Positions 3,487-28,312 of a stretch of 64,000 bases of DNA are shown here, piece after piece. Every line of letters begins with the position of its first letter. Positions within the stretch are counted from its first letter, which is position 1. The translations under genes and the position numbers were made by a program. Under the pieces are notes generated by a model, which saw nothing but the letters and a program-made list of their open reading frames with translations, ran no database searches and was not told where the DNA came from. Source of the stretch: Poseidonibacter lekithochrous (GTDB lineage Bacteria; Campylobacterota; Campylobacteria; Campylobacterales; Arcobacteraceae); contig NZ_JAHKQT010000004.1 of the NCBI RefSeq assembly GCF_018861145.1, positions 124,001-188,000 of the forward strand, written 5' to 3'.

Positions 3487-5127
3487 TTGGTACATGAATT
3501 AGCAGGAAAGAAAGCACCTAAAGAGATACTTGAAAATATAGACGCATTAGTAGAAGCTTATTATACTAATGAACCAGATGTAAAAGAACAAACACAAAAA
3601 GTAAGTTTTGGAACTTCTGGACATAGAGGAAGCTCAATAAAATCTAGTTTCAATGAAAATCATATTTTAGCAATAACTCAAGCACTTTGTGAATATAGAA
3701 AAAAAACTGGAATTATAGGGGTGATGCATATAGGAATAGATACTCATGCCTTATCAATACCTGCTCAAATTACAGCATTGCAAGTATTTCTAGCAAATGA
3801 AGTACCATGTAAAATAGCAGTAAATAAAGAATATACACCTACTCCTATTTTATCTTTTACTATTTTAGAATCAAATAAAAATAGTAATGTTTTAAATGAT
3901 GGTGTTGTTATAACTCCTTCACATAATCCACCATCAGATGGGGGATTTAAATATAATATGCCAAATGGTGGACCAGCAGATACTGATGTAACTTCTCTTA
4001 TTGAAAATAGAGCAAATGAAATACTTTTAAACGATCTAAAAGACGTTAAAGCAATAGATAAAGATAAAATATTTACATCTAAGTTCTTAGAATTATATGA
4101 TTTTATAACACCTTATGTAAAAGCATTAAACACTATAATTGATATGAATAGTATTAAAGAGGCTGATATTAAAATTGGAGTTGATCCCTTAGGTGGTTCG
4201 GGACTAGAAGTTTACAAAAAGATAAAAGATATCTATAAAATTGAGCTTGATATTGTAAATGAGAAAATTGACCCTACTTTCTCTTTTATGTCTTGTGATC
4301 ATGATGGTAAAATAAGAATGGATTGTTCTTCTCCATATGCTATGTCATCACTAATTGCACTATCAGAAAAATACGATATTGCCTTTGCTAATGATCCTGA
4401 TTTTGATAGACATGGGATTGTTACAAAAAGTGTAGGACTTATGAATCCAAATCACTATTTATCAGTTGTTATTTGGTATCTATTTTCAAGTAGAGACTGG
4501 GGAGAAGAAGCAGCTGTTGGTAAAACTTTAGTTTCAAGTTCAATGATTGATAAAGTTGTTAATTCTTTAGAAAAAAAGCTCTTTGAAGTGCCTGTAGGTT
4601 TTAAATGGTTTGTGGAAGGTTTATACAATGGGACTTTAGCTTTTGGTGGAGAAGAAAGTGCTGGAGCATCATTTTTAAGAAAAGATGGAAGTGTATGGTC
4701 TACTGATAAGGATGGAATTATTTTAAATCTTTTAGCAGCTGAAATAACTTCAAAATTGAAAAAAGACCCGGGTGAAATTTATAAGGAGTTTGAAGAAAGA
4801 TTTGGAAAGTCTTATTATAGGAGAGTTGATGCTCCCGCTAGTTTTGAACAAAAAGCAAAATTAAAAAATCTTAGTGTTGAAGATATTACATCTAAAATTT
4901 TAGCAAATGAAAAAATAGAAAATATTTACACAAAAGCAAGTGGAAATAATGCAAGTATTGGTGGACTTAAAGTTACTACTAAAAATGGCTGGTTCGCTGC
5001 ACGTCCTTCAGGAACAGAAGATATATACAAAATATATGCTGAGAGTTTTATAGATGAAAAACATCTAGAACTACTAATTAAAGAAGCCCAAGATTTAGTT
5101 AATAAAAGCATAGAGTCTGGTAATTAG
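3487..5127 (+). CDS. pgm: Phosphoglucomutase (alpha-D-glucose phosphate-specific)
   Basis: Interconverts glucose 1-phosphate and glucose 6-phosphate in the cytoplasm, linking glycolysis to sugar nucleotide and glycogen metabolism. The 546-residue length equals that of the E. coli enzyme. Visible motifs are SFGTSGHRG near residue 40, the phosphoserine loop T-P-S145-H-N-P-P, the Mg-binding loop D303-P-D-F-D-R-H, the sugar-binding GGEESAG stretch, and the phosphate-binding RPSGTED near the C-terminus. The start is TTG, preceded by AAAAAAAGGA. It is the first clear core gene after the accessory patch and has no operon partner. All catalytic residues are present. Confidence 0.95.
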   Translation: MVHELAGKKAPKEILENIDALVEAYYTNEPDVKEQTQKVSFGTSGHRGSSIKSSFNENHILAITQALCEYRKKTGIIGVMHIGIDTHALSIPAQITALQVFLANEVPCKIAVNKEYTPTPILSFTILESNKNSNVLNDGVVITPSHNPPSDGGFKYNMPNGGPADTDVTSLIENRANEILLNDLKDVKAIDKDKIFTSKFLELYDFITPYVKALNTIIDMNSIKEADIKIGVDPLGGSGLEVYKKIKDIYKIELDIVNEKIDPTFSFMSCDHDGKIRMDCSSPYAMSSLIALSEKYDIAFANDPDFDRHGIVTKSVGLMNPNHYLSVVIWYLFSSRDWGEEAAVGKTLVSSSMIDKVVNSLEKKLFEVPVGFKWFVEGLYNGTLAFGGEESAGASFLRKDGSVWSTDKDGIILNLLAAEITSKLKKDPGEIYKEFEERFGKSYYRRVDAPASFEQKAKLKNLSVEDITSKILANEKIENIYTKASGNNASIGGLKVTTKNGWFAARPSGTEDIYKIYAESFIDEKHLELLIKEAQDLVNKSIESGN

Positions 5128-5460: not shown

Positions 5461-5599
5461 TTAATTAGATAAATCTTTATATAAGAAACTTATTTAGATT
5501 TAAAATAAGTAAATTTTATAATATAAATAACAAGTAGATATATAACTTTTTTTAATAATAAACAACTAGGATTTGACTCTATATTTTACTTATTTACTG

Positions 5600-15278: not shown

Positions 15279-16172
15279 CTATTTTCTAATTATAATTGCA
15301 CTATTTAAACCATTTGAATCTTTAAACATCTGTGCTTGATTTTGTGAGCTAAAACCTCTAATTAATACTTTATGCAAAAATCTATTATTTGAAACCACTT
15401 TTACTACATCAACATTATATTGATTATTTATCATCGTTTCATATTTTCTTTTTGTTTGCATTGCTCCTTCTAATTTACTAAAAGCACCAACTTGAATATT
15501 ATAGTTATCATGAACTATAGTTTTTTCTTCTATTTCCATTGAATCCATAAGAGTGATTGGTTCTACTTTAACTACTTCTTTAGTTACAATAGGTTTTTTA
15601 TATACTTGTTGTACAGGTGCATTATAATTTTGTATTTCGCCATTATATCCTAAAACAGTTATTTTTACCCTTGCTGTTCCATCTTTTACCATATCGATTT
15701 TATGAGCTGCTGTATTTGATAAATCAATAATTCTTCCATCAACAAAAGGACCTCTATCGTTAACTCGGACAACTACACTTTTACCATTTTCAAGATTATC
15801 AACTCTAACTACTGTATTCATAGGTAAGGTTTTATGTGCAGCTGTTAAAGCATACATATTATATGTTTCACCATTTGAAGTTTTTTTAGCATGAAAATTA
15901 GGTCCATACCAAGATGCGATTCCACTGAACTGATCATTTATATTTGGAATAAATGGATAATAATCTTCACCAAAAACGGTATAAGGTCGAAGGGTAGCTC
16001 TATGCATTGCTTTAGAGTTTCTTATTTGGCTATTTGATGTATTTTTATATATTTTATTTATATCTGAAGATTTAACACTTTGTTTTTTTGAAGAACATCC
16101 TGTTATTAAAAGTGCACCAGCTATTAAACTAGTAGTTATTCCATATTTAAAAATTTTATTTATATATTGCAA
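15279..16172 (-). CDS. rlpA: Septal ring lytic transglycosylase RlpA family lipoprotein
   Basis: Cleaves peptidoglycan glycan strands lacking stem peptides, usually at the division septum. A lipoprotein signal ends in LLITGC. A double-psi beta-barrel domain (about 80-190; [19 protein letters not shown] and [18 protein letters not shown], with the catalytic Asp in NDRGPF) is followed by a SPOR domain (about 220-295), which binds denuded glycans. A TTG at 16184 is possible, but the TTG at 16172 has GGAG eight bases upstream and gives the better start. Both overlap the mltD end. It is paired with mltD, so two glycan-cleaving enzymes are made together. Confidence 0.9.
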
Positions 16173-17541
16173 TTTTATCTCCAACTTTTATTTTATTCGA
16201 TTTCAAATTATTATCTCTTTTTATTTTCTTAATATTAAGTTTAAATTTATGTGCAATTGTACTTAAAGAATCACCTTTTTTAACTTTGTATATTATCTTC
16301 TTTGTGCTTTTTCTTGTTTTTTTATTTACTTTATATTTATCAACAGGAATAACAAGTTTTTGTTTTAATGATAATTTATTTGATTTTAAATCATTAAATT
16401 TTTTGATTAAACCATATTTTACTTTATATTTATGAGCAATACCTGATAAAGTATCACCTTTTTTAACTCTATAAATTACAAAAGAATCATTTTTTATTTT
16501 ATTTTTATTTTTATTATAAATACCTAATTTTGAATAAGGAATATTTAAATCATAACGTTTTACATCAAAAGGTACAATTTCTTGTTTAATATGTATATTC
16601 ATTTTTGCTAAAGTATTATGTTTCATATTTAATACTTTTGAAATACTTCTTAAATGTAATCCACCTTTTACTTTTACAGTAGTAATTGTAGCATTTATAT
16701 CTCTATCAAAAATATAACCTTTTTTAAGAAAATTTCTATTAGCAATCATTGCTAAAATTACAATTTTTCTTAAATAACTACGACTTTCACTTGGTAAATA
16801 TTGTCTGTCTACCTTTTCTTGTATTTTTAAAAGATCTCTTGCTGTAATTGGAATATTCCACTGTCTAATATCTTTATATATTCTATTAACTTTATAAAAA
16901 TCTTTTCTCGTACTTAAGTATTCTTTTATTGTATTTCTATACTCTGTAATTCTTTTAGAATTCTTTTTATTCGGATAAAGCTGTATATATTTGTCTATAC
17001 TTGCTCTTGTAATTGCTTCAATTACTCTACCTTCCCCACAATTATAAGCTAAAATTGCTAAATACCATTTATCAAATCTTTTATGATGTGATTTTAAATA
17101 CTTTGAAGCTGCATGTGTTGATTTTATAAAATCTAATCTTTCATCAACATATTCATCATTTCTTAATTTATGAATTCTTGCAGTTGTTGGCATAAATTGC
17201 CATAAGCCAAGAGCATTCGTAGAAGATTTAGCATCTATTCTAAAATTCGATTCAGCCATTGATAAAAATAAAAAGCTTGAAGGTAACCCTTCTTGATTTA
17301 AAACTTCTTTAATTTTTGAAATATAAATAGATGATTCTCTTAAATTTCTTTTATATACATGTATGTGATTTTTATCTGACAATTTATCATATAAATCTTG
17401 AAGATGTTCATCATGAACAAAAGATTTCTCGATATCTAAGTCTTTTAAGACTTGAAGATCTTTTTTTGTGAAGCTTACTGCATTTAAGTTAGTATAAAAA
17501 AATGTAAAAACTAAAAATACAATTAATATTATTTTATTCAA
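16156..17541 (-). CDS. mltD: Membrane-bound-type lytic transglycosylase MltD with two LysM domains
   Basis: Lytic transglycosylase that cuts the MurNAc-GlcNAc bond. A signal peptide covers 1-21. The SLT domain (about 85-190) has catalytic E97 in FLSMAESNF and the [12 protein letters not shown] motif. The C-terminus carries two LysM peptidoglycan-binding repeats (about 350-395 and 415-460; [16 protein letters not shown] and [16 protein letters not shown]). There is no lipobox, unlike E. coli MltD. It overlaps rlpA at its 3' end and lies 37 bases after tatD. The 461-residue length is normal. Confidence 0.92.
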
Positions 17542-17578
17542 GTAAAATCCTATTTTCTTATATAACTAGATATCTTGG

Positions 17579-18436
17579 TTAAGATAAACTAGAAAACTCT
17601 TTAAATAATTTAATAGCATTCTTTGTAGTAAGATTATCAATCTCTTCTCTTGACATTTCTAATAATTCAGCCATTTTATCAGCTACAAAAACTGTATAAT
17701 ATGGCTCATTTCTTTTTCCTCTAAAAGGATGTGGAGTAAGATAAGGAGCGTCTGTTTCTATAATTAATTTATCTTTTGGAATTTTAGTTAAGATTTCTAC
17801 TAGTTTTTTTGCATTTTTAAAAGTTAAGACACCACCAATACCAAAGTAAAAATTATGATCAGAAAGAGGTAATAAATGCTCACTTGCATTAAAACAGTGA
17901 AGAACTCCACCTACTTGTTTGGCATCATAATCTATTAATATTTGTCTTGAATCATTTGAAGCTTCACGAACATGAACAATTAGAGGTTTATTTACTTTTT
18001 TTGCAAACTCTATTTGAGCTATAAAAACTTCTTTTTGTTTTGCAATATTAGCTTTTTTTTCTTCCTCATCTTCAGGAAGTCTAAAATAATCTAAACCACA
18101 CTCTCCAACTGCTATACATTTAGGATGATTTATATATTTCTCTAAAACTTTTTCATCATACATATCTATATCATAAGGATGAATACCTACAGCAAAAAAT
18201 ACTTCATCATATTTTTCTGCTAATTTAATAGCTTGAGGAAGATCATTAAAATCAGCTCCTGGAATTAAAAAGCCTTTTACATTATGCTCTATTGCATTCT
18301 TAATTACGGCATCAATATCTTCATAATATTGTTTGTTGTCTAAATGACAATGAGTATCTATTATTATGTTAAAAACCTTTTTTCTACTAAATTTAGTAAT
18401 CCATTTATTTCGGATAAATCTGAAACTTTTATCCAA
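17579..18436 (-). CDS. tatD: TatD-family hydrolase (metal-dependent DNase)
   Basis: TIM-barrel metallohydrolase, reported as a 3'-5' DNA exonuclease. Motifs are DTHCHLD (residues 27-33), VGECGLDYFR, VHVREAS, LHCFNAS and IETDAPYLTP, which together give the two-metal site. Family members normally begin two or three residues before DTHCHLD. Here no ATG, GTG or TTG lies there. The nearest usual start is the TTG at 18436, adding about 23 residues and overlapping the upstream gene by 73 bases, whereas an AUA triplet (18367-18361) sits 8 bases after AAGG. The true start is therefore unclear. It lies 37 bases before mltD. Confidence 0.93.
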   Translation of the reverse strand: MDKSFRFIRNKWITKFSRKKVFNIIIDTHCHLDNKQYYEDIDAVIKNAIEHNVKGFLIPGADFNDLPQAIKLAEKYDEVFFAVGIHPYDIDMYDEKVLEKYINHPKCIAVGECGLDYFRLPEDEEEKKANIAKQKEVFIAQIEFAKKVNKPLIVHVREASNDSRQILIDYDAKQVGGVLHCFNASEHLLPLSDHNFYFGIGGVLTFKNAKKLVEILTKIPKDKLIIETDAPYLTPHPFRGKRNEPYYTVFVADKMAELLEMSREEIDNLTTKNAIKLFKEFSSLS

Positions 18437-18669
18437 GCATCAATGCCAAAGTTTTTAAATGCATCATAATCTTCTTCATCATCAATAATTGCAACTGAAA
18501 CATATTTTTCATTACATACTTCAGCTTTATTTTCTTCAAATTCAAAAATTGAATCAATATTTATAATGATAATATCAGCTTTTTCACTTATTCCACTATG
18601 AAAATGTTCAACTTTATGTTCACTATCAATCAGTGAATCATCAACTTCACAAAATGTAATTATATTCAT
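18364..18669 (-). CDS. Small conserved-looking protein, possibly a degenerate receiver-like domain
   Basis: A 101-residue acidic soluble protein of unknown function. The alternating pattern (ADIIIINIDS, then VSVAIIDDEED, AFKNFGIDAWIKVSDL) resembles the second half of a response-regulator receiver: a strand ending in an acidic residue, a later strand, a G-I-D-A turn and a lysine at the beta5 position. The N-terminal acidic pair and full length (about 120) are not convincing, so phosphorylation is doubtful. It lies 60 bases after hslU and its stop overlaps the region where tatD should start. The position inside the operon supports it as a real gene. The receiver likeness is inference. Confidence 0.7.
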   Translation of the reverse strand: MNIITFCEVDDSLIDSEHKVEHFHSGISEKADIIIINIDSIFEFEENKAEVCNEKYVSVAIIDDEEDYDAFKNFGIDAWIKVSDLSEINGLLNLVEKRFLT

Positions 18670-18729
18670 ATAAAAACTCCTAAATTTCTTTAATTCTTTA
18701 TTCTATCTAAAAAATTATTAATTTCAAAA

Positions 18730-20058
18730 CTATAGTATATACCTAGCTGTATCTACGTTATCTACAATCTCATCAAGTTTATCTTCAACTAAAGTTTTTG
18801 TTATAATTACTTTCTCGCCTTTTTTCTCATCAGCATCAAAAGAGATATCTTCAATTACTTTTTCTATAACAGTATGTAATCTTCTAGCACCTATATCTTC
18901 TGTCATCTCATTTGCAGTTACAGAATACTTTGCAAAGGCTCTAATAGAACTATCATCAAACTCTAATTCAACTTCTTCAACAGCTAAAAGGGCTTGATAC
19001 TGTTTTAATAAAGAGTTTTTAGTATTTGTTAATATTTTATATAAAGCTTCTTCATCCAAAGATTCTAATTCAACTCTTAATGGGAATCTTCCTTGAAGCT
19101 CTGGTAATAAATCACTTGGTTTTGATACATGGAATGCACCAGCTGCTATAAATAAAATATGGTCAGTTTTAACTTGCCCAAATTTAGTTTGAACAGAACT
19201 ACCTTCAACAATAGGTAATAAATCTCTTTGAACACCTTCTTTACTTGGGTCTTGATTTTGATTAGTTTTACCAGATGCAATTTTATCAATTTCATCTAAA
19301 AATATAATTCCACCATTTTGAGCTCTTTTAACAGCTTCTATTTTAATAGCTTCTTGATCTAATAAAGATTCACTAGCTTCATCTCTTAATAAAACTTTTG
19401 CATCTTTAATACTTACTTCTTTTTTTATTTTGTCTTTATTAAGACCACCTAACATTTTATTTAGGCTTTCTTGCATTGAAGACATATCCATTGGCATATT
19501 TGAGTCTAAAATCTCTACATGAGCTTTTTTAGAAACTTCTATTTCAATTTTTTTATCATCTAATGATCCATCAAGAAGTTTTTTCTCCATAGTATTATAT
19601 GTTTTAATAAATGATTCTTTTGCACTATTGCTTGCAGTATCAGGAAGTGGAGGTACAAGTATTTCAATAATCTTTTTATGAACTTCACCTTCTATTTTAT
19701 CTTTAATTTTATCTTCATATTCTCTTGATACAATATTTATTGATTCATATACTAAATCTCTAATCATTGATTCAACATCACGACCTACAAAACCAACTTC
19801 TGTATATTTACTAGCTTCAACTTTTACAAAAGGTAAAGACATCATTTTTGCTAATCGTCTTGCAATTTCTGTTTTACCAATACCAGTACTACCAATCATA
19901 AGAATATTTTTTGGCATTATTTCTTCTTGTAGTTCTGGTTCTACTTTCATTCTTCGATATCTATTTCTTAAAGCTAATGCAATTGTTTTCTTTGCATTAG
20001 CTTGTCCAATAATATAATCATCTAAGTATGCAACAATTTGCTTAGGTGTTAAATCCAT
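18730..20058 (-). CDS. hslU: ATP-dependent protease ATPase subunit HslU (ClpY)
   Basis: AAA+ unfoldase that feeds substrates into HslV. Walker A is GSTGIGKTEIARRLA (about 55-69), Walker B is GIIFLDEIDKIA, and sensor/arginine-finger motifs lie in LQGRFPLRVEL. The pore loop GYVG-type motif appears as EVGFVGRDVE. The C-terminal tail ends ARYIL, which inserts into HslV. The I-domain (about 110-235) is shorter and divergent, as is usual. It follows hslV by 6 bases. Confidence 0.97.
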   Translation of the reverse strand: MDLTPKQIVAYLDDYIIGQANAKKTIALALRNRYRRMKVEPELQEEIMPKNILMIGSTGIGKTEIARRLAKMMSLPFVKVEASKYTEVGFVGRDVESMIRDLVYESINIVSREYEDKIKDKIEGEVHKKIIEILVPPLPDTASNSAKESFIKTYNTMEKKLLDGSLDDKKIEIEVSKKAHVEILDSNMPMDMSSMQESLNKMLGGLNKDKIKKEVSIKDAKVLLRDEASESLLDQEAIKIEAVKRAQNGGIIFLDEIDKIASGKTNQNQDPSKEGVQRDLLPIVEGSSVQTKFGQVKTDHILFIAAGAFHVSKPSDLLPELQGRFPLRVELESLDEEALYKILTNTKNSLLKQYQALLAVEEVELEFDDSSIRAFAKYSVTANEMTEDIGARRLHTVIEKVIEDISFDADEKKGEKVIITKTLVEDKLDEIVDNVDTARYIL

Positions 20059-20064
20059 ACTTTT

Positions 20065-20601
20065 TTAATCCTCTATTTTCAATAATTTAATATTTTGATT
20101 TGTATAAATACAAAGTTCACCTGCAATCATTAAAGATTCTTTTACAACTTGTTCTTCATCCAAATCTGAGTGTTTTGCTAAAGCCCGTGCTGCAGAAATA
20201 GCAAAGTTCCCACCAGAACCAATTGATGCAATGCATCCATCTTCAGGTTCGACAACATCACCATTTCCACTTAAAATAAAAATATGGTCTTTATTTAAAA
20301 CTATCATCATAGCTTCTAGTCTTCTTAAAACCTTATCTTTTCTCCACTCTTTAGAAAAAGCAATAACAGCTTTTAATAAATCACCTTTCGTACTTTCAAG
20401 ATGAGTTTCAAACATATCATAAAGATTAAAGGCATCAGCAGTACTTCCTGCAAATCCAGAAAGTATCTGATCTTTATAAAGTTTTCTAATTTTTGTAGCA
20501 TTACCTTTTAAAACTGTATTGCCAAAAGTAACTTGTCCATCACCTCCAATTACAGCCTTGTTTTTCCCTTTGTAAGCTAATATCGTTGTAGCATCAAACA
20601 T
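20065..20601 (-). CDS. hslV: ATP-dependent protease peptidase subunit HslV (ClpQ)
   Basis: Threonine protease forming the double-hexamer core of HslUV. The chain begins [12 protein letters not shown], so four residues precede the catalytic threonine, where most bacteria have only the initiator Met. Campylobacter HslV has the same MF-x-A extension, which implies a processing step beyond Met removal. Other motifs are [19 protein letters not shown] and the [14 protein letters not shown] segment. The 178-residue length is normal. It lies between rplI (4-base gap) and hslU. Confidence 0.97.
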
Positions 20602-20605
20602 CTAA

Positions 20606-21052
20606 TTATTCTCCAATGATTATAACTTCTAAAGAGGCATGAACTCCATAACCTAATTTACAATCAACTATAAAAGTACCTTCTGCTTTGATTTTCTTCT
20701 CTAATGATAAGTTCTTTTTATCAATTTCTATAGAGAATTGAGTATTTAATTCTTCTGAAATTTCTTTATTTGTAACAGAACCAATTAAATGACCATTTGC
20801 ACCAATTTTATGTTTAATAGTAAGTTTTGTAGCATTTAATTTTTCTGCTAATTCTTTTGCATCTGCTAATTCTTCAGCTTCTTTAGCTTCTCTTCTTTTT
20901 TCATCCGCTTTATATTTTGCTAGTACTGCATTTGTTGCATGTAAAGCTAGGCCTTTTCCAATTAGAAAGTTTTTTCCATATCCATCTTTAACTTCTTTAA
21001 CTTCACCTGCTTTTCCTGTACCTTGAACATCTTTAATTAATAAAACTTTCAT
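20606..21052 (-). CDS. rplI: 50S ribosomal protein L9
   Basis: Large-subunit protein at the base of the L1 stalk. The N-terminal rRNA-binding domain (MKVLLIKDVQGTGKAGEVKEVKDGYGKNFLI), the long connecting helix rich in Lys and Glu (about 45-80) and the C-terminal domain (about 85-148) are all visible. The 148-residue length is standard. GGAG lies seven bases before ATG. It is the first gene of the long minus-strand operon, so its promoter (TATAGT-like on the minus strand near 21090) probably drives hslVU and the envelope genes too. Confidence 0.98.
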   Translation of the reverse strand: MKVLLIKDVQGTGKAGEVKEVKDGYGKNFLIGKGLALHATNAVLAKYKADEKRREAKEAEELADAKELAEKLNATKLTIKHKIGANGHLIGSVTNKEISEELNTQFSIEIDKKNLSLEKKIKAEGTFIVDCKLGYGVHASLEVIIIGE

Positions 21053-21148
21053 ATTTACTCCGTATATCTAAAATTGGCAGTATTTTACTATAACTTATAT
21101 GAAGTAAGAATAAATTTGAATTTATTTAAAAATTAAGAACTTGATATT

Positions 21149-21169
21149 AGTTTGTTAACGAACTATAAT
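21149..21169 (+). promoter_or_regulatory. Palindrome overlapping a -10 box in the rplI-recombinase gap
   Basis: AGTTTGTTAACGAACT (21149-21164) is a near-perfect palindrome and runs into TATAAT (21164-21169) on the plus strand. The layout is that of an operator over a promoter. Downstream are AAAGGATT and only two mini-frames (6 codons at 21200, 16 codons at 21222-21272, MSEISELINKVIIEVL), so the transcript may be a relic or a small RNA. The gap 21053-21297 holds nothing else I can name. Confidence 0.3.
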
Positions 21170-21297
21170 TCCACCCAAAAAGGATTAAGAAAAACTTTAT
21201 GCGAATAAAGATGGCTTAACTATGAGTGAGATATCAGAATTAATAAATAAAGTGATAATAGAAGTACTTTAACTCTTGATAATATAGATATATTCTC

Positions 21298-21939
21298 TTA
21301 ACTTGCAATATCAAGAGTATTTGGCAAATTTTGTCTAATATTCCTTTTTTTAACATAATTATTTAAACCTATATGATTGTTGTATCCTAAAAGTTTTGCA
21401 ATTTTTCTAACAGATAAACCAACAGATAATAATTCTTCAATTTTATCTCTTTGCTTATCAAATTTAGATTTTTGAATAGTTCCAACAGGTTTTCCTAAAG
21501 CAACACCTGATAATTTTTTTGCACTTAATGCCTCTTTTGTTCTTAAACTCATTAAATCTTTTTCTAATCCAATAGTCATAGAAATCATTCCTAAAATCAT
21601 TTGAGTTAACATATCTTTATCATCAACTAAATCAAGGTTTTGTTTAACTACTAGTATTCTTATTTTATTAGATAAAAGAAATTTAACAATTTCTAAAATT
21701 GTTTCAATTGTTCTTCCAAAGACATTTAAATCATAAACAATAAGTGTTGTATTTTTTTCACAATTTTTTAGTAATTCTAAAATATTTTTTTCATCACTTG
21801 GAGTACTAATATCTATCTCTATATTTTTATAAATATCAATATTATGTTTTTTTACATAATTATTTAAAATATCTTTTTGTTCTTCTGTATATTTTTCATT
21901 ATTCTTATTTATCCTCGTGTACGTGAAAATATTTGACAT
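21298..21939 (-). CDS. Serine recombinase-family protein lacking the catalytic serine
   Basis: It aligns by eye with Mpi/Hin-type DNA invertases: YxR start (Y7-T-R9), LIVYDLNVFGR76, LGMISMTIGLEKDLMSLRTKEAL, then the SGVALGKPVGT hinge and a helix-turn-helix (about 165-200, LSVRKIAKLLGYNN). In active enzymes YxRVST carries the nucleophilic Ser; here it reads Y-T-R-I-N11-K. The first arginine of the RLGR motif is V73. Two key catalytic residues are thus gone while DNA-binding and dimer regions remain. It is probably a DNA-binding protein or a dead relic. The frame is intact over 213 residues, which argues for selection. It is a single gene, divergent from ubiX. Confidence 0.85.
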   Translation of the reverse strand: MSNIFTYTRINKNNEKYTEEQKDILNNYVKKHNIDIYKNIEIDISTPSDEKNILELLKNCEKNTTLIVYDLNVFGRTIETILEIVKFLLSNKIRILVVKQNLDLVDDKDMLTQMILGMISMTIGLEKDLMSLRTKEALSAKKLSGVALGKPVGTIQKSKFDKQRDKIEELLSVGLSVRKIAKLLGYNNHIGLNNYVKKRNIRQNLPNTLDIAS

Positions 21940-22182
21940 GATTTAATCCTTAACATTAAGTATATTTTTAATATATAAATTTACAATATGTTTTATTTTT
22001 ACATATAAAGTTTATACATTATGTTAACAATTTTATTATTAACATAACCTTAAAAATTATCTAAATGAGACTATTTTTCGTATTTGTAGGAATATGTCTT
22101 TACACATATAATTATACAGTTTGAATTAAAAGCCTTTTTTAGATATTATCTTTTTAAATATATGTAAATAGAAAGGTATCTT

Positions 22183-22737
22183 TTGAAAATTACTGTAGGA
22201 ATCTCAGGAGCAAGTGGAGCTAATTTAGGTCTTACTTTTGTTAAAAAACTTCCTAAAAATATTGAAGTTTTTTTAGTACTTTCAAAGAGTGCAAAAATTG
22301 CATTAAAACTTGAAAATGGAATTTCTGTAAAAAAAACTTTTGAACAATATCCAAATGTCAAAATATTTTTAGATACAAATATTGCTGCACCAATTGCATC
22401 TGGTTCGTTTAAAGTAGATAAAATGATTATCCTTCCATGCTCCATGAATACACTTGCAAAATGTACCGTAGGAATTTCTGATTCATTGATTACAAGGGCT
22501 TTTACAGTGATGTTAAAAGAAAAAAGAGATATAGTTTTAGCACCTAGAGAAATGCCCTTTAATTCAATTGCTTTAGAAAATATGTTAAAATTATCTAACT
22601 TGGGAGTGATAATTGCTCCTCCTGTTCTTGGATATTATTCAAGTCAACAAACATTAGAAGAAATGGAAAATTTCTTAATTGGTAAATGGTTTGATTTACT
22701 AAAAATTGACAATAACTTATATGAAAGATGGAAATAA
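22183..22737 (+). CDS. ubiX: Flavin prenyltransferase UbiX
   Basis: Makes prenylated FMN, the cofactor of UbiD-type decarboxylases in quinone synthesis. The Rossmann-like flavodoxin fold starts with VGISGASGANLGL (residues 5-17). The conserved later motifs ILPCSMNTLAKC (about 84-95), ADSLITRA-like SDSLITRA, and LAPREMPFN are present. The start is TTG with AAAGG upstream. The 184-residue length is normal. It heads the plus-strand operon and overlaps the coaD region at its 3' end. Confidence 0.95.
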   Translation: MKITVGISGASGANLGLTFVKKLPKNIEVFLVLSKSAKIALKLENGISVKKTFEQYPNVKIFLDTNIAAPIASGSFKVDKMIILPCSMNTLAKCTVGISDSLITRAFTVMLKEKRDIVLAPREMPFNSIALENMLKLSNLGVIIAPPVLGYYSSQQTLEEMENFLIGKWFDLLKIDNNLYERWK

Positions 22738-22739
22738 AA

Positions 22740-23231
22740 ATGCCTAAAGAATTAAATACAAGAGAGTCAAATAGAAAAGCTATATATAGCGGTACTTTTG
22801 ACCCAATTACAAATGGTCATTTAGATATTATAAGTCGTGCTGCGAATATATTTGATGAAGTAATAATTGCAGTTGCTAAAAGTGAAAGAAAAAAGCCTAT
22901 GTTTTCTCAAGAAGAGAGAGTAAAGTTTTCAATAGCAGCAACACAACATTTACCAAATGTAAGGGTTGAAGGATTTGATACACTATTAGTTGACCTTGCA
23001 ACACAATTAAATGTAAATACTATTATTAGGGGTCTTCGAGCTGTTTCTGACTTTGAATTTGAATTACAAATGGGTTATGCTAATGCATCAATTAATAATA
23101 AAATTGAAACACTTTACTTGATGCCTACATTAGAAAATGCTTTTGTCTCTTCAACAATAGTCCGAGAAATCATAAGATTTGAAGGGAAATTCCAGCATCT
23201 AGTTCCTAAAGAAGTTTTGAAATGTATGTAG
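22740..23231 (+). CDS. coaD: Phosphopantetheine adenylyltransferase CoaD
   Basis: Fourth step of coenzyme A synthesis: joins ATP and 4'-phosphopantetheine. The nucleotidyltransferase motif GTFDPITNGHLDII (with T/H-x-G-H) and the C-terminal VSSTIVREI motif are present. An ATG at 22728 is also in frame, but the one at 22740 has GGA seven bases upstream and avoids a longer overlap with ubiX. The MPKELNTRESNR leader before the fold is slightly long. It overlaps tmk by 10 bases, so the two are coupled. Confidence 0.96.
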   Translation: MPKELNTRESNRKAIYSGTFDPITNGHLDIISRAANIFDEVIIAVAKSERKKPMFSQEERVKFSIAATQHLPNVRVEGFDTLLVDLATQLNVNTIIRGLRAVSDFEFELQMGYANASINNKIETLYLMPTLENAFVSSTIVREIIRFEGKFQHLVPKEVLKCM

Positions 23232-23788
23232 TTGTTGAAGGAATTGATACAGCTGGAAAATCAACACAATTAGATTTATTACAAAAAAAATACGAAAATG
23301 CTGTTTTTACAAAAGAGCCTGGGGGAACTGATATTGGTCGTAAATTACGAACTATGGCATTAAATGGTGAAGCTAAATCGCCAATTGCCGAAATGTTTCT
23401 ATTTTTAGCAGATCGTGCAGAACATATTGAAGAAGTAATTCTTACTAATAAACAAAACATAATAATTTCAGATAGATCAATGATTTCAGGAATTGCTTAT
23501 GCTTCTACATTTCCATTAGAAAAAATGATTGAACTTAATTTATTAGCTACAAATAATGTATTACCAAGTCATGTAATTTTATTAGAACTATCTGCTTCAG
23601 AGCTTGAATATAGGCTTTCTCAAAAAGAAAATGATGCAATTGAATTACGAGGAATTGAGTATTTAATAAATATTCAAAATAGAATGAAAGAAACAATAAT
23701 TAAGCTTGGATTAAATCATTTGTTTATTGATGCAAGTTTAAAAATAGAAGAAATAGAAAAACAAATAGAGGATTTTTTAAATGAGTAA
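23222..23788 (+). CDS. tmk: Thymidylate kinase
   Basis: Phosphorylates dTMP to dTDP. The P-loop is GIDTAGKST (residues 7-15), where most bacteria have GxDGxGKST; the Ala is a mild variation. The EPGGTDIGRKLR substrate loop and DRSMISGIAYA, with the DR(Y/S) motif, are present. At 188 residues it is slightly short but complete. The start overlaps coaD by 10 bases and the stop overlaps hisS by 8 bases. Confidence 0.95.
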   Translation: MYVVVEGIDTAGKSTQLDLLQKKYENAVFTKEPGGTDIGRKLRTMALNGEAKSPIAEMFLFLADRAEHIEEVILTNKQNIIISDRSMISGIAYASTFPLEKMIELNLLATNNVLPSHVILLELSASELEYRLSQKENDAIELRGIEYLINIQNRMKETIIKLGLNHLFIDASLKIEEIEKQIEDFLNE

Positions 23789-25016
23789 AGTTGAAAAAAA
23801 AGCGATAATACAGAGTCTTAGAGGTATGAAAGATATTGTAAATGATGAAAGTGCATTATTTACATATTTTGTAGATAATGCATCTTCAATTGCTAAAAGA
23901 TATGGATTTTCATATATGGAAACACCGATTTTAGAAGAGACCGCTTTATTTAAAAGATCAGTAGGTGAGAGTTCAGATATTGTAAATAAAGAGATGTATA
24001 ACTTTACAGATAAAGGTGAACATGAAGTTTGCTTAAGACCAGAAGGAACAGCTGGTGTTGTTAGACATTTTGTACAAAAGAAACTAGATCGTGCGGGTGG
24101 AACACAAAGATGGTATTATTATGGGCCTATGTTCAGATATGAAAGACCACAAAAAGGAAGATTAAGAGAATTTCATCAATTTGGTTGTGAAGTATTTGGA
24201 GTAGCTTCTGTAATTGAAGATGCGAATATAATCATGATGATAAAAGAGATTTTAGACTTCTTTGAAATTGGGTTTAAACTACAGTTAAATTCGCTTGGAG
24301 ATGAAAATTGTATGCCTCAATATAAAGAAAATCTTGTAAAACATTTATCTTCTTTTAGAGAAAAATTGTGTGCAGACTGTCAGGTAAGAATTGATAAAAA
24401 TCCGATTAGAGTTCTAGATTGTAAAAATGAAAACTGTCAATTACAGTTATCCAATGCACCCAAAATCACTGATAACCTATGTAATGCATGTAATACTGAC
24501 TTTGAAAAACTAAAAGAAATTCTAGACTTTAATGGTGTTGAATATGAAATTGATACAAATTTAGTTCGTGGTTTAGACTATTATTCAAAAACAGCATTTG
24601 AGTTTGTTTCAGATGAGATTGGTGCTCAAAGTGCAATTGCTGGAGGGGGAAGATACGATAAGTTAGTAGAATACCTAGGTGGTCGTCCAACTCCTGGTAT
24701 TGGCTTTGCTATTGGTATTGAAAGATTACTTGAACTTATTAAAATGAAAGAATCAAAAGAAGATATTGTTTATATTGGTGCTTTAGATGAAACTTCCATT
24801 AATACAGTATTAAAAACTGCAAATATTAAAAGAAAAACAACAAAAACACTTGTAGAGTACACACCAAGAGCTTTTGGAAAACACTTTAAACTTGCAGAAA
24901 AAGTAAATGCTAATATTCTTGCATTAATTGGAGAAAAAGAGCTAAATGAAGGAACTATCTATATTAAAAATTTAGATACTAAAGAGGAAAAAACTATAAA
25001 GATAGAGGACTTTTAA
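23781..25016 (+). CDS. hisS: Histidine-tRNA ligase
   Basis: Class II aminoacyl-tRNA synthetase charging tRNA-His. Motif 2 region is WYYYGPMFRYERPQKGRLREFHQ, the histidine signature is LVRGLDYYSKTAFE, and motif 3 is GGRYDKLVEYLGG ... GIGFAIGIERL. The C-terminal anticodon-binding domain spans about 325-411. The 411-residue length is typical of bacteria. It is not part of histidine synthesis and lies far from hisB. It overlaps tmk by 8 bases and is followed by speA after 2 bases. Confidence 0.98.
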   Translation: MSKVEKKAIIQSLRGMKDIVNDESALFTYFVDNASSIAKRYGFSYMETPILEETALFKRSVGESSDIVNKEMYNFTDKGEHEVCLRPEGTAGVVRHFVQKKLDRAGGTQRWYYYGPMFRYERPQKGRLREFHQFGCEVFGVASVIEDANIIMMIKEILDFFEIGFKLQLNSLGDENCMPQYKENLVKHLSSFREKLCADCQVRIDKNPIRVLDCKNENCQLQLSNAPKITDNLCNACNTDFEKLKEILDFNGVEYEIDTNLVRGLDYYSKTAFEFVSDEIGAQSAIAGGGRYDKLVEYLGGRPTPGIGFAIGIERLLELIKMKESKEDIVYIGALDETSINTVLKTANIKRKTTKTLVEYTPRAFGKHFKLAEKVNANILALIGEKELNEGTIYIKNLDTKEEKTIKIEDF

Positions 25017-25018
25017 TT

Positions 25019-26824
25019 TTGAATGATTATGGAATTGATATATGGAGTGATGATAACTTTATAGTAGAAAATGGATATGCAAAAGTAAACCATAAGAGTA
25101 AGCCATCTTTAATCTCTATTGTAAAAGAAGTTCGAGAGCAAGACTTTAAAGGACCCTTACTTTTAAGATTTCCTCATATAACAAAAAAACAAATAAATAC
25201 ACTTTATGATACATTTAACACAAGTATTGATGAGTATAAATACCAAGGAACATTTAATGCTGTCTTTCCTTTAAAGGTAAATCAACTACCAACTTTTATT
25301 CATCCACTTATACAAAGTGGTAAAGAGTTTAATTATGGTTTAGAAGCAGGAAGTAAAGCAGAACTTGTTATTGCAATGACATATAATAATCTTAATTCCC
25401 CTATAACAGTTAACGGGTTTAAAGACAAAGAAATGATTCATTTAGCTTTTATTGCAAGAAGTAAAGGCCATAATATAACACTTATAATTGAAGGCATCAA
25501 CGAATTGGAAACAATTATAGGTATTCAAAAGGAAACAAGTCTTCCCTGTCCAAATATCGGATTAAGAGTTAGACTTCATAGTGGAGGAAGTGGTATTTGG
25601 GCAAAAAGTGGTGGAATTAATTCTAAGTTTGGATTAACATCAACAGAAATACTTCAAGCTTATGAAATGATAAAAGCAAATGAAATGATAGAGTATCTTA
25701 CTATGATTCATTTTCATATTGGTTCTGCTATGAATTCAATAAAACCTTTAAAAAAAGCATTAAAAGAGTCTGGACATATTTATGCTGAACTTAAGAACTT
25801 GGGAGCTATTAATTTAAATGCAATTAATATTGGTGGTGGATTAGCTGTTGAATATAGTGCATATGAAAGAAATAGATTTTATTCATTAAGAGAATTTGCA
25901 AGTGATGTAATATTTACATTAAAAGATATTGCTAAACAAAAAGGTGTTGAAGAGCCTAATATTTTCACAGAATCTGGACGATTTATTTCAGCTGCATCAA
26001 CAGTATTAGTAACACCTGTTTTAGAACTTTTTTCATCTGAATATGATTTATGCAACTTAAAATTAAAAGAAATAAACCCTCCTTTAATTGAAGAATTAAA
26101 TTTACTTTTTAAAGATATGATTAAAAAGACATCTTATGAATATATGCATGATGCAATTGATTATATGGAGTCCTTATTGACACTGTTTGATTTAGGATAT
26201 ATTGACTTACAAGATAGATCTAATGCTGAAATATTAACTCATCAAATTATAAAGAAAGCAATTTCTCAGCTTGAAGTTGAAGATTATGAAGAGTTAAAAA
26301 GATTAGATGAAAATATACAAGAAAAATATTTATTAAATTTCTCTATGTTTCAGTCTCTTCCTGATTATTGGGGGATAGACCAAGAATTTCCAATCATGCC
26401 TTTAACACATCTTGATAAAAAACCAACAAGATCTGCTTCATTATGGGATATTACATGTGATAGTGATGGAGAGTTACCTTTTGATTCAAAAAAAGCTTTA
26501 TATTTACATGATATTGATTTAAATAAAGAAGAGTATTTTTTAGGCTTCTTTAATGTTGGAGCATATCAAGATACTTTAGGGATGAAACATAATCTATTTT
26601 CACATCCAACGGAAGTAAATGTAGTATTTAAAGAAGGAAAAGTAGCTCTTGAAAAAATTATTGAATCTCAAACTATTATAGATATTCTTGAAGATATTGA
26701 TTATGACACTTCTGATATTAAGAATAAACTTAAAGAAAATTTGGATATAAACACTTATAAAATATTAGAAAAATATTTAAATGAAAACAATTATTTAAAA
26801 ACAATTTGGAGCTATAATGACTAA
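25019..26824 (+). CDS. speA: Biosynthetic arginine decarboxylase
   Basis: PLP enzyme converting arginine to agmatine in polyamine synthesis. The PLP lysine is K86 in AVFPLKVNQ. GLEAGSKAEL, HFHIGS, NIGGGLAVEYSA and the C-terminal WDITCDSDG, with the cysteine/aspartate substrate motif, are all visible. At 601 residues it is shorter than E. coli SpeA (658) but close to other Campylobacterota forms. The start is TTG with AGGA upstream. It overlaps cysE by 8 bases. Confidence 0.95.
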   Translation: MNDYGIDIWSDDNFIVENGYAKVNHKSKPSLISIVKEVREQDFKGPLLLRFPHITKKQINTLYDTFNTSIDEYKYQGTFNAVFPLKVNQLPTFIHPLIQSGKEFNYGLEAGSKAELVIAMTYNNLNSPITVNGFKDKEMIHLAFIARSKGHNITLIIEGINELETIIGIQKETSLPCPNIGLRVRLHSGGSGIWAKSGGINSKFGLTSTEILQAYEMIKANEMIEYLTMIHFHIGSAMNSIKPLKKALKESGHIYAELKNLGAINLNAINIGGGLAVEYSAYERNRFYSLREFASDVIFTLKDIAKQKGVEEPNIFTESGRFISAASTVLVTPVLELFSSEYDLCNLKLKEINPPLIEELNLLFKDMIKKTSYEYMHDAIDYMESLLTLFDLGYIDLQDRSNAEILTHQIIKKAISQLEVEDYEELKRLDENIQEKYLLNFSMFQSLPDYWGIDQEFPIMPLTHLDKKPTRSASLWDITCDSDGELPFDSKKALYLHDIDLNKEEYFLGFFNVGAYQDTLGMKHNLFSHPTEVNVVFKEGKVALEKIIESQTIIDILEDIDYDTSDIKNKLKENLDINTYKILEKYLNENNYLKTIWSYND

Positions 26825-27575
26825 AGAAAATGAGGAAGAAGAAAAAAAAGAAAATAGTATTTCTTTTTGGGCTCAAATAAAAGAGGACTTTGTTGTTCCT
26901 AAACTAAATGACCCAGCACTTGATTCTAGTGTAGAACTGTTTTTTAATTACCCAGGTGTTTGGGCTATTATTAACCATAGGATTACAAATAAATTATATA
27001 TAAATGGTTGGAGAAGAACAGCAAGAGTATTAGGAGGAATATCCTCTTTATTCACAAAGACAGATATTCACCCAGCTGCAACGATAGGTAGACGAGTATT
27101 TATTGATCATGCAATTGGTGTTGTAATTGGTGCAACTACTATTATTGAAGATGATGTACTAATATATCAAGGTGTAACTCTTGGTGGTGTTAGTTTAGAT
27201 AAGGGTAAAAGACATCCAACTGTAAAATCAAATGCTGTTATTGGAAGTGGTGCGAAAGTACTTGGAAATATTACAATTGGAAAAAATTCTAAAGTTGGAG
27301 CTAATTCAGTTGTAGTTTGCGATGTTCCAAAAAACTCTACAGCTGTTGGGGTTCCTGCAAAAATTCTTAAAAGAGATAATAAAGACTGTAAATTTACACA
27401 TGATGATTTACCAGATATCAATAAAGAAATGTTTAAATATTTAATTGAAAGAATTCACGTTTTAGAAACTGCTGTTAAAGAAGAAGATGGAATTGATGTA
27501 AGTAAAAAAGATAAAAAACTTGAAGATGATTATAATAAGTTCATTAATGCAATGAACTCAATAAAAAAGAAATAA
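26817..27575 (+). CDS. cysE: Serine O-acetyltransferase
   Basis: Makes O-acetylserine from serine and acetyl-CoA, the committed step of cysteine synthesis. An N-terminal helical part (about 15-75) is followed by a left-handed beta-helix of hexapeptide repeats (about 80-185; ATIGRRVFIDHAIGVVIGA, TLGGVSLDKGKRHPTV, NSVVVCDVPKNSTAVGVPAK). An acidic and lysine-rich tail (185-252) is longer than in E. coli CysE. It lies between speA (overlap) and a TSUP carrier, and the pairing with a sulfur-type exporter fits sulfur metabolism. Confidence 0.95.
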   Translation: MTKENEEEEKKENSISFWAQIKEDFVVPKLNDPALDSSVELFFNYPGVWAIINHRITNKLYINGWRRTARVLGGISSLFTKTDIHPAATIGRRVFIDHAIGVVIGATTIIEDDVLIYQGVTLGGVSLDKGKRHPTVKSNAVIGSGAKVLGNITIGKNSKVGANSVVVCDVPKNSTAVGVPAKILKRDNKDCKFTHDDLPDINKEMFKYLIERIHVLETAVKEEDGIDVSKKDKKLEDDYNKFINAMNSIKKK

Positions 27576-27580
27576 TGTAA

Positions 27581-28312
27581 ATGTATGATTTAGCTGCTTT
27601 TGGAATTATAACTGGTTTTATATCAGGCTTTTTTGGAGTTGGTGGAGGTATGATTTTAGTACCAATGCTTTTACTCTCTGGCTTTGTAATGAAAGAAGCA
27701 GTTGCTATTTCTATTATGCAAATGGTATTTTCATCAATATATGGTTCATTTCTAAACTCAAAAAAAGCTACTAATGTTATAAAAGACGGAATTATGCTTG
27801 GTATTGGTGGTTTTGTAGGAGGTCTACAAAGTGGATATATTGTAACAAATGTATCTAATGAATTCTTACAATATCTATTTATATTAATTTTATTTTATTC
27901 AATTATAAAAATATTTATAACACCTGCGGAACATGATTGTGATCAAAGATCAAAAAATAAACTTACTTTATTTATTATAGGTTTTTTTACAGGACTTATA
28001 GCTATGAGTATTGGAGTTGGTGGTTCAGTAATATTAATACCTATTTTAATAGGATTTTTAAAGTATGACTTAAAAGCAGCCACTGCTCTTAGTCTATTTT
28101 TTGTAATTTTTTCATCAATTGCAGGATTTACTTCTTTATCCTTAAGTGGTCATATGCTTTATACAGAAGGTACTATTATTGGCGTTTTTTCTTTAATTGG
28201 TGTTTATTTTGGAATTATTGTTAAACATAAAGTTCATTCGAACTCTTATAAAAAATATATATTAGTTTTAAATGCTATTATTTTAGTAACTATGATTTAT
28301 AAAACATTTTAA
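27581..28312 (+). CDS. TSUP-family (TauE/SafE) membrane transporter
   Basis: A membrane protein of about eight segments with the two-fold repeat of the TauE/SafE family: ITGFISGFFGVGGGMILVPML in the first half and FTGLIAMSIGVGGSVILIPIL in the second. Members export or import sulfite, sulfoacetate and other organic anions. Lying 5 bases after cysE suggests a sulfur compound, but the substrate is inference. The 243-residue length is normal. A strong terminator follows 64 bases later, ending the operon. Confidence 0.9.
   Translation: MYDLAAFGIITGFISGFFGVGGGMILVPMLLLSGFVMKEAVAISIMQMVFSSIYGSFLNSKKATNVIKDGIMLGIGGFVGGLQSGYIVTNVSNEFLQYLFILILFYSIIKIFITPAEHDCDQRSKNKLTLFIIGFFTGLIAMSIGVGGSVILIPILIGFLKYDLKAATALSLFFVIFSSIAGFTSLSLSGHMLYTEGTIIGVFSLIGVYFGIIVKHKVHSNSYKKYILVLNAIILVTMIYKTF

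Follow-up and report, generated by a model that had tools for sequence, protein, structure and literature searches.

In a window of 64,000 nucleotides (the whole stretch of DNA analysed here) from the 3.0 Mb genome of Poseidonibacter lekithochrous, we found a gene of the serine recombinase superfamily that is very probably catalytically dead and nevertheless conserved (21298..21939, minus strand). Comparison of sequences suggests that it encodes a domesticated resolvase which probably acts as an autoregulated DNA-binding protein. The conservation of the gene across the family Arcobacteraceae, the changes of its key residues, the selection acting on it, its synteny and the conservation of the palindromes in its promoter can all be read directly from the genomes compared.

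The gene and its altered active site

The frame is intact, as the initial annotation had stated, and encodes 213 aa from an ATG start. By sequence the product belongs to the serine recombinase superfamily, since it matches the Pfam Resolvase domain (PF00239) with an E value of 8.4e-18 and 65.3 bits against a cut-off of 23.3; the C-terminal HTH_38 match is weak (22.4 bits, under the cut-off of 27). The best NCBIfam model was the Mpi model NF009949, which matched over the full length with 95.1 bits and thus below the cut-off of 272 for an Mpi-family invertase equivalog. Five scanned paralogs likewise remained under this cut-off (113-157 bits); the protein studied here differs from the Mpi-family invertases in having no catalytic Ser. 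An AlphaFold2 model, built from 32 window and locus proteins, has a mean pLDDT of 86.2 and a pTM of 0.59, which makes its arrangement of domains untrustworthy. Its best fold matches are solved Tn3/gamma-delta resolvases (E 1.3e-8). The Sin and Tn3 resolvase complexes (PDB 2r0q and 5cy1) match with E values of 1.7e-7 and 1.3e-8, respectively, at TM-scores of 0.4-0.5 and with a large rmsd that stems from a different placement of the domains.

A phmmer alignment with Tn3 resolvase pairs N11 with S10, N72-V73 with D67-R68, R76 with R71 and K127 with R125 (the numbering and role of the Tn3 residues S10, D67, R68, R71 and R125 are assumed here). The codon at the nucleophile position, S10 of Tn3/gamma-delta resolvase, lies at 21907..21909 and that at the position of R68, the first Arg of RLGR, at 21721..21723, both on the minus strand. 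Both replacements, which had initially been placed by eye, are therefore confirmed, and the equivalents of the catalytic Ser and Arg68, required of a serine recombinase or TnpR, are absent from the protein.

The initial annotation had also raised the question whether N and V persist in the orthologs, and in most of them they do. Position 11 was counted over 96 orthologs, since two of the 98 end at contig edges; it is N in 86, S in seven and I in three, and S in all 19 paralogs. At position 73 the 98 orthologs carry V (94), S (3) or A (1) and never Arg, and the paralogs carry R (18) or K (1). Not one of the 98 orthologs combines Ser 11 with Arg 73. The seven orthologs with Ser 11 come from three g10 genomes (G072, G073 and G084), where it stands with V73, and from four g7 genomes, where it stands with K9 and with V or S at position 73; a Ser aligned at this position apparently fails to restore the active site. 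Two relatives from outside the family in the same order (G055 and G043) keep both Ser and Arg.

Two other positions are weaker, non-decisive signs of lost catalysis. Position 127 is K in all 98 orthologs (R in 17 and K in two paralogs), and position 72 is N in 90 of the 98. At the latter the paralogs show S in 15 cases and D in four, so that Asp cannot serve as a sign of activity in this group. At position 51, equated with R45 by our own alignment, 18 of 19 paralogs have R and the orthologs mostly K (65 of 98). R9 is kept in 92 of the 98 orthologs (K in four, two cut by contig ends), Q21 is kept as well, and R76 is present in 98 of 98.

Conservation and relatives of the gene

The family search gave matches at 1e-20 in 99 of 104 Arcobacteraceae genomes; the match in G076 is a paralog only, and a true ortholog is present in 98 of the 104. 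It was not found in G028, G029, G076, G077, G096 and G117, and the genomes G077 and G117 are merely 76% and 61% complete. The divergent neighbour in the window (22183..22737, plus strand), named ubiX-like by us from its sequence, serves as a synteny marker: ubiX adjoins the ortholog in the same order in 86 of the 98 loci, 10 loci have no marker neighbour, and two, cut by a contig end, show the rplI side alone. The downstream neighbour (20606..21052, minus strand), presumably an rplI-like gene for ribosomal protein L9, was seen in 55 of the 98 loci, where flanks are often short. No transposase was seen by eye among the ORFs of positions 16000-28000, part of which were covered by family scans. 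In the same region a 101-aa frame (18364-18669, minus strand), lacking any Pfam match at E values up to 1, overlaps the start of a gene that we take to be tatD-like.

A search across the order covered 398 genomes and scored at most seven candidates in each; all matches better than 1e-40 fell within Arcobacteraceae, and the best match outside the family had an E value of 3.8e-31. The named relatives from the protein search were also mostly Arcobacteraceae, the closest one with a species name being Poseidonibacter ostreae (96%). Assemblies titled Helicobacter pylori, Desulfosporosinus and Sulfurospirillum (L180, L182 and L190) hold this gene, which was otherwise met in Arcobacteraceae alone; their titles look wrong or their bins mixed.

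The dN/dS values over the gene range from 0.013 to 0.145 in 14 of 15 close pairs, one pair having no replacement, and dN of the DNA-binding domain is zero in 10 of the 15. In the recognition helix region N188-R199 (NHIGLNNYVKKR; 21343..21378, minus strand), residues 188-193 (NHIGLN), 195, 198 and 199 are identical in all 98 orthologs, as are residues 156-161 (QKSKFD); the AlphaFold2 model places the helix at 189-198. The catalytic half is more variable among the orthologs than the DNA-binding domain. Stronger constraint on the DNA-binding half would be expected if selection keeps the contact with DNA and not the chemistry. A recent pseudogene is ruled out by the conserved orthologs and the low dN/dS. 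Stops were flagged within nine listed matches of the family search (three each among the g10 orthologs, the g7 orthologs and the paralogs); all six of these orthologs nonetheless have open frames of 209-229 aa, and for two of the g7 orthologs the frame was read from its own ATG and is open. The g7 genomes (L038, L039, L108 and L109) are small, 1.3-1.5 Mb, and retain the gene, the location of which differs between L038 and L039.

Relatives outside the family were sought by tblastn of plasmids, and six resolvases were first read: one each from Moellerella, Ca. Megaera, Cardinium and Persicobacter, and two from Legionella. Their identity to the protein is 40-44%, as against 31-36% for five aligned paralogs, the two ranges coming from different programs. 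Ser and Arg are intact in all six, and a recognition helix of the form N/S-H-I-G/S-L-N-T-Y is common to five of them. Four (L352, L353, L354 and L357) are divergent beside a Tn3-family transposase gene, with a DUF4158 frame between transposase and resolvase in L353, and the more distant L359 likewise adjoins a Tn3-family transposase. These Tn3-type plasmid resolvases, for example L354 from Moellerella wisconsensis pW65-a and L352 from Legionella fallonii, have the same domain order as the dead protein and a near-identical arm (GKPKGTIQKSKFD-like); they differ from it in keeping Ser and Arg and in lying mostly beside a Tn3-family transposase. The dead gene has no Tn3 transposase neighbour and adjoins ubiX as its fixed chromosomal neighbour. 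The comparison with Mpi/Hin invertases made in the initial annotation is refined here, the nearest outside relatives read being Tn3-type resolvases. One plasmid record at 60-80% identity lies outside the eight rows listed. Seven phage records had a match, the best among the matches listed at 32%, and among 397 genomes of the class there are four with a closer relative of L354 (49-55%).

In two trees, with 39 of the 98 orthologs in the first and 25 in the second, the dead clade lies on one side of a branch (100/99) that separates it from the 19 paralogs; the tool warned of long branches meeting. In the second tree seven of eight Tn3-type rows stand beside the paralogs and the eighth among them, apart from the dead clade, so descent from a Tn3-type resolvase rests on identity and the helix. 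The earlier suggestion of a repurposed DNA-binding protein gains support from the orthologs, the purifying selection, the tree branch and the conserved DNA-binding domain, which together point to a conserved exaptation.

Around the 19 paralogs themselves, a search for inverted repeats gave one convincing pair. In L043, which belongs to a different family of the order, an active-type recombinase gene (4055-4708) is flanked by a perfect 27-bp inverted repeat (3962-3988 and 5507-5533), and the segment between the repeats is possibly invertible.

Palindromes in the promoter and elsewhere

The 5' flank of the gene carries up to three palindromes TWWACAwwwTGTWWA, built around ACAwwwTGT, in its own promoter. 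Candidate operator site A (TTAACATAATGTATAA; 22011..22029, centre 22020) is the best profile match in the 64-kb window and overlaps an extended-minus-10-like TGTATAA. Candidate site B (core ACATATTGT; 21978..21996, centre 21987) follows 33 bp from A, and candidate site C (core ACTTAATGT; 21950..21964, centre 21957) lies next to the ribosome-binding site at a distance of 30 bp from B; all three are given on the minus strand. Sites A and B are the sole profile matches above 11.5 bits in the window, site C falling below this threshold, and as 2.4 such matches are expected in shuffles the count of two proves nothing alone.

The comparison of promoters is more informative. A self-trained profile found 234 sites in 91 usable promoters, with at least three in 53, two in 19 and one in 19, counts that are optimistic owing to the training. 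A fairer profile was trained on ten promoters of the own genus, its seed consensus being picked with all promoters in view, and was tested at 8 bits on 81 promoters of other genera: at least one site was present in 75 of them (6.85 in shuffles), at least two in 41 (0.3) and at least three in 21 (0). The pair pattern gave two matches in the own genome, both at the own promoter, against one in the control; over 41 genomes, 13 of 35 rows were upstream of the recombinase and the remaining 22 were about at the control level of 21. With a promoter model at least 42 rows fell below E 0.005, and they came from 41 of 61 genomes. Of these rows, 40 are at the recombinase gene; the remaining two (G123 and G124) lie on a different contig from the gene itself, which in both genomes is truncated upstream by a contig end. 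In the other 20 of the 61, nothing among the matches listed was below E 0.005. The dyad positions showed no compensatory change beyond shuffles, and the conservation of site A could stem from the -10-like element alone. Taken with the position of the sites, these counts make autoregulation through sites A-C likely.

A similar motif was met beside active-type enzymes. In L354, the interval that separates the transposase from the resolvase carries TTAACATTATGTATA together with an exact inverted copy at a distance of 12 bases; these palindromes score 16.0 and 12.8 bits with the Arcobacteraceae profile, and none of 2000 shuffles scored as high. The sites of L356 score 9.8 and 9.4 bits (P 0.046 for the best; for the second, 0 of 2000 shuffles). 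Eight Tn3-type relatives were scored, with P values per relative; no motif scored upstream of the other six, and L354 and L356 are 82% alike. A shared motif and helix in an active-type enzyme of another phylum would tie the motif to the protein better than position alone, the tie resting on one pair of related elements. L352-L356 also share, farther from the resolvase gene, a palindrome AACGnnCGTT, read in the printed sequences and taken for a crossover site. It does not occur in the upstream stretches of the dead gene, which comprised 91-320 bases in 95 of the 98 loci and 0-22 in three. That the operator descended from res is a tentative suggestion, which we regard as possible and somewhat doubtful.

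The palindromes might instead belong to another regulator, with the dead recombinase binding elsewhere. The operator array is absent from the g7 loci (L038, L039, L108 and L109), where nothing scores and the helix is almost unchanged; similar palindromes occur at flagellin promoters, and six of the eight Tn3-type relatives have no such motif. However, the same palindrome stands beside an active-type resolvase with a near-identical helix in another phylum, and the promoter model ranks the recombinase promoter far ahead in 41 of the 61 genomes, so we consider a separate regulator unlikely.

A large regulon was not supported: TWWACAWWWTGTWWA occurs in 45 places in six genomes against 45 in the control, which is no enrichment. 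Of the 43 contexts examined among these 45, nine are intergenic (one at the recombinase gene, three at flagellin, two at a TonB receptor and three others). With the stricter TAACATWWTGTWWAA, 10 genomes yielded 16 rows, against 20 in the control; seven of the 16 are the recombinase promoter. The TonB receptor was rejected as a target, as two of eight orthologous upstream regions (L314 and L318) scored above 12 and the changed site of G000 scored 8.7.

For flagellin, eight of 30 upstream regions in a first set scored at least 11.5, against eight of 526 background upstream regions (about 1%), of which at least three are the recombinase gene itself and one its divergent ubiX side; the lead had been noticed post hoc in G002, G020 and G103 (another flagellin), and the first set includes two of these. 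A second set, in which two rows have no usable start and several are other flagellins, gave 10 of 30. Orthologous flagellin upstream regions, where usable, scored in 7/7 for g1, 5/6 for g12, 2/4 for g15 and 3/10 for g19, and none scored in g10; in three g7 genomes searched, flagellin gave no match at 1e-10. In g1, in most g12 members and in some of those from g15 and g19, the palindrome is located at -32 to -41; it overlaps a -10-like TATACAAT. The flagellin promoter may be a second target, missing in many genera, although we consider this rather improbable.

Several other observations were made during these searches. Genomes G009 and G011 have 15 and 12 flagellin matches, many of them in tandem. 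In G020 an operator-like pair of palindromes 27 bp apart (L149/L229, around 1501-1539) lies upstream of a gene that we take to be rhodanese-like. In L128 and L151 a pair of TAACATTATGTTAG-like palindromes, which could be attI or an operator, precedes a presumably integron-integrase-like gene.

The dead protein could also have an architectural role, bridging sites as resolvase tetramers do, with the operator only setting its own level. The long helix 110-143 of the model holds many invariant residues, and the equal numbers of motif places in genomes and control leave no large regulon visible. Against this, the strongest repeated sites found lie in the own promoter and none of the analyses gave a sign of bridging; we regard such a role as less probable still than a separate regulator.

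Proposed role and comparison with known systems

Active resolvases repress their own transcription from res, and Tn3 and Sin resolvases bind several sites beside their own gene and cut at the crossover site. For an autoregulated, catalytically dead resolvase we propose the following course. A Tn3-type resolvase or a close relative would have been captured once, in an ancestor of Arcobacteraceae, next to ubiX. The catalytic Ser and the equivalent of Arg68 would then have disappeared, while the protein was retained as a dimeric DNA-binding protein, the dimer binding the palindromes TWWACAwwwTGTWWA. Cooperative binding of dimers to A, B and C on one face of the helix would block the own promoter; the spacing of about 30-34 bp (about three helical turns) and the overlap with the -10 element and the ribosome-binding site fit repression. 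In this proposal the lack of catalysis, the binding of DNA, the repression and the transposon descent of both protein and operator are what we infer from the comparisons above. A more extended version, in which resolvase and res were domesticated together, accessory subsites became the operator and the regulator also represses flagellin in several genera, is improbable as a whole.

Continued recombinase activity by way of a non-canonical residue is highly improbable, as none of the 98 orthologs retains Arg at the position of Arg68, none has both Ser 11 and Arg 73 and the crossover-like palindrome is missing from the usable upstream stretches, even though R9 and R76 are kept, two of 19 paralogs have K127 and seven of 96 orthologs align a Ser at position 11. 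Because Asp67 is unconserved in the paralogs, K127 occurs in two of them and the dead clade and the Tn3 rows are not united in the tree, we slightly lowered our confidence in the dead state, in the proposed role, in its extended version with flagellin and in the descent of the operator, and slightly raised it for a still active enzyme.

Default annotation would, we expect, label this gene an invertase or recombinase. If our reading is true, the comparison of 98 genomes offers a clear case in which a site-specific recombinase has become a DNA-binding protein with a family-wide distribution, the enzyme and its control region being possibly both traceable to a transposon. Should the flagellin promoter indeed be a target, a dead relative of Hin-type enzymes would regulate flagellin by repression and not by inversion. 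The protein is conserved and probably autoregulated, its recognition helix is invariant, and it is a direct target for experiments.

Judged by title and the start of the abstract, no literature on a dead serine recombinase of Arcobacteraceae was found. The inverted-repeat motif GTTAC-GTAAC of Bacteroides, as given in the excerpt of PMC12118408, was a weak lead and was not used.

The predicted A-C array follows the same idea as the multi-site binding of Sin and Tn3 resolvases beside their own genes; these systems cut at a crossover site, whereas the dead protein has lost the Ser and Arg68 and the usable stretches upstream of its gene showed no crossover-like palindrome. Host recruitment of a mobile-element recombinase likewise links our case to the mobile-element proteins recruited by hosts in PMC8987985, the available part of which covers active invertases and other systems and describes no dead serine recombinase. 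A mobile-element protein turned host regulator is already a known kind, and the dead serine recombinase described here would be a variant of it.
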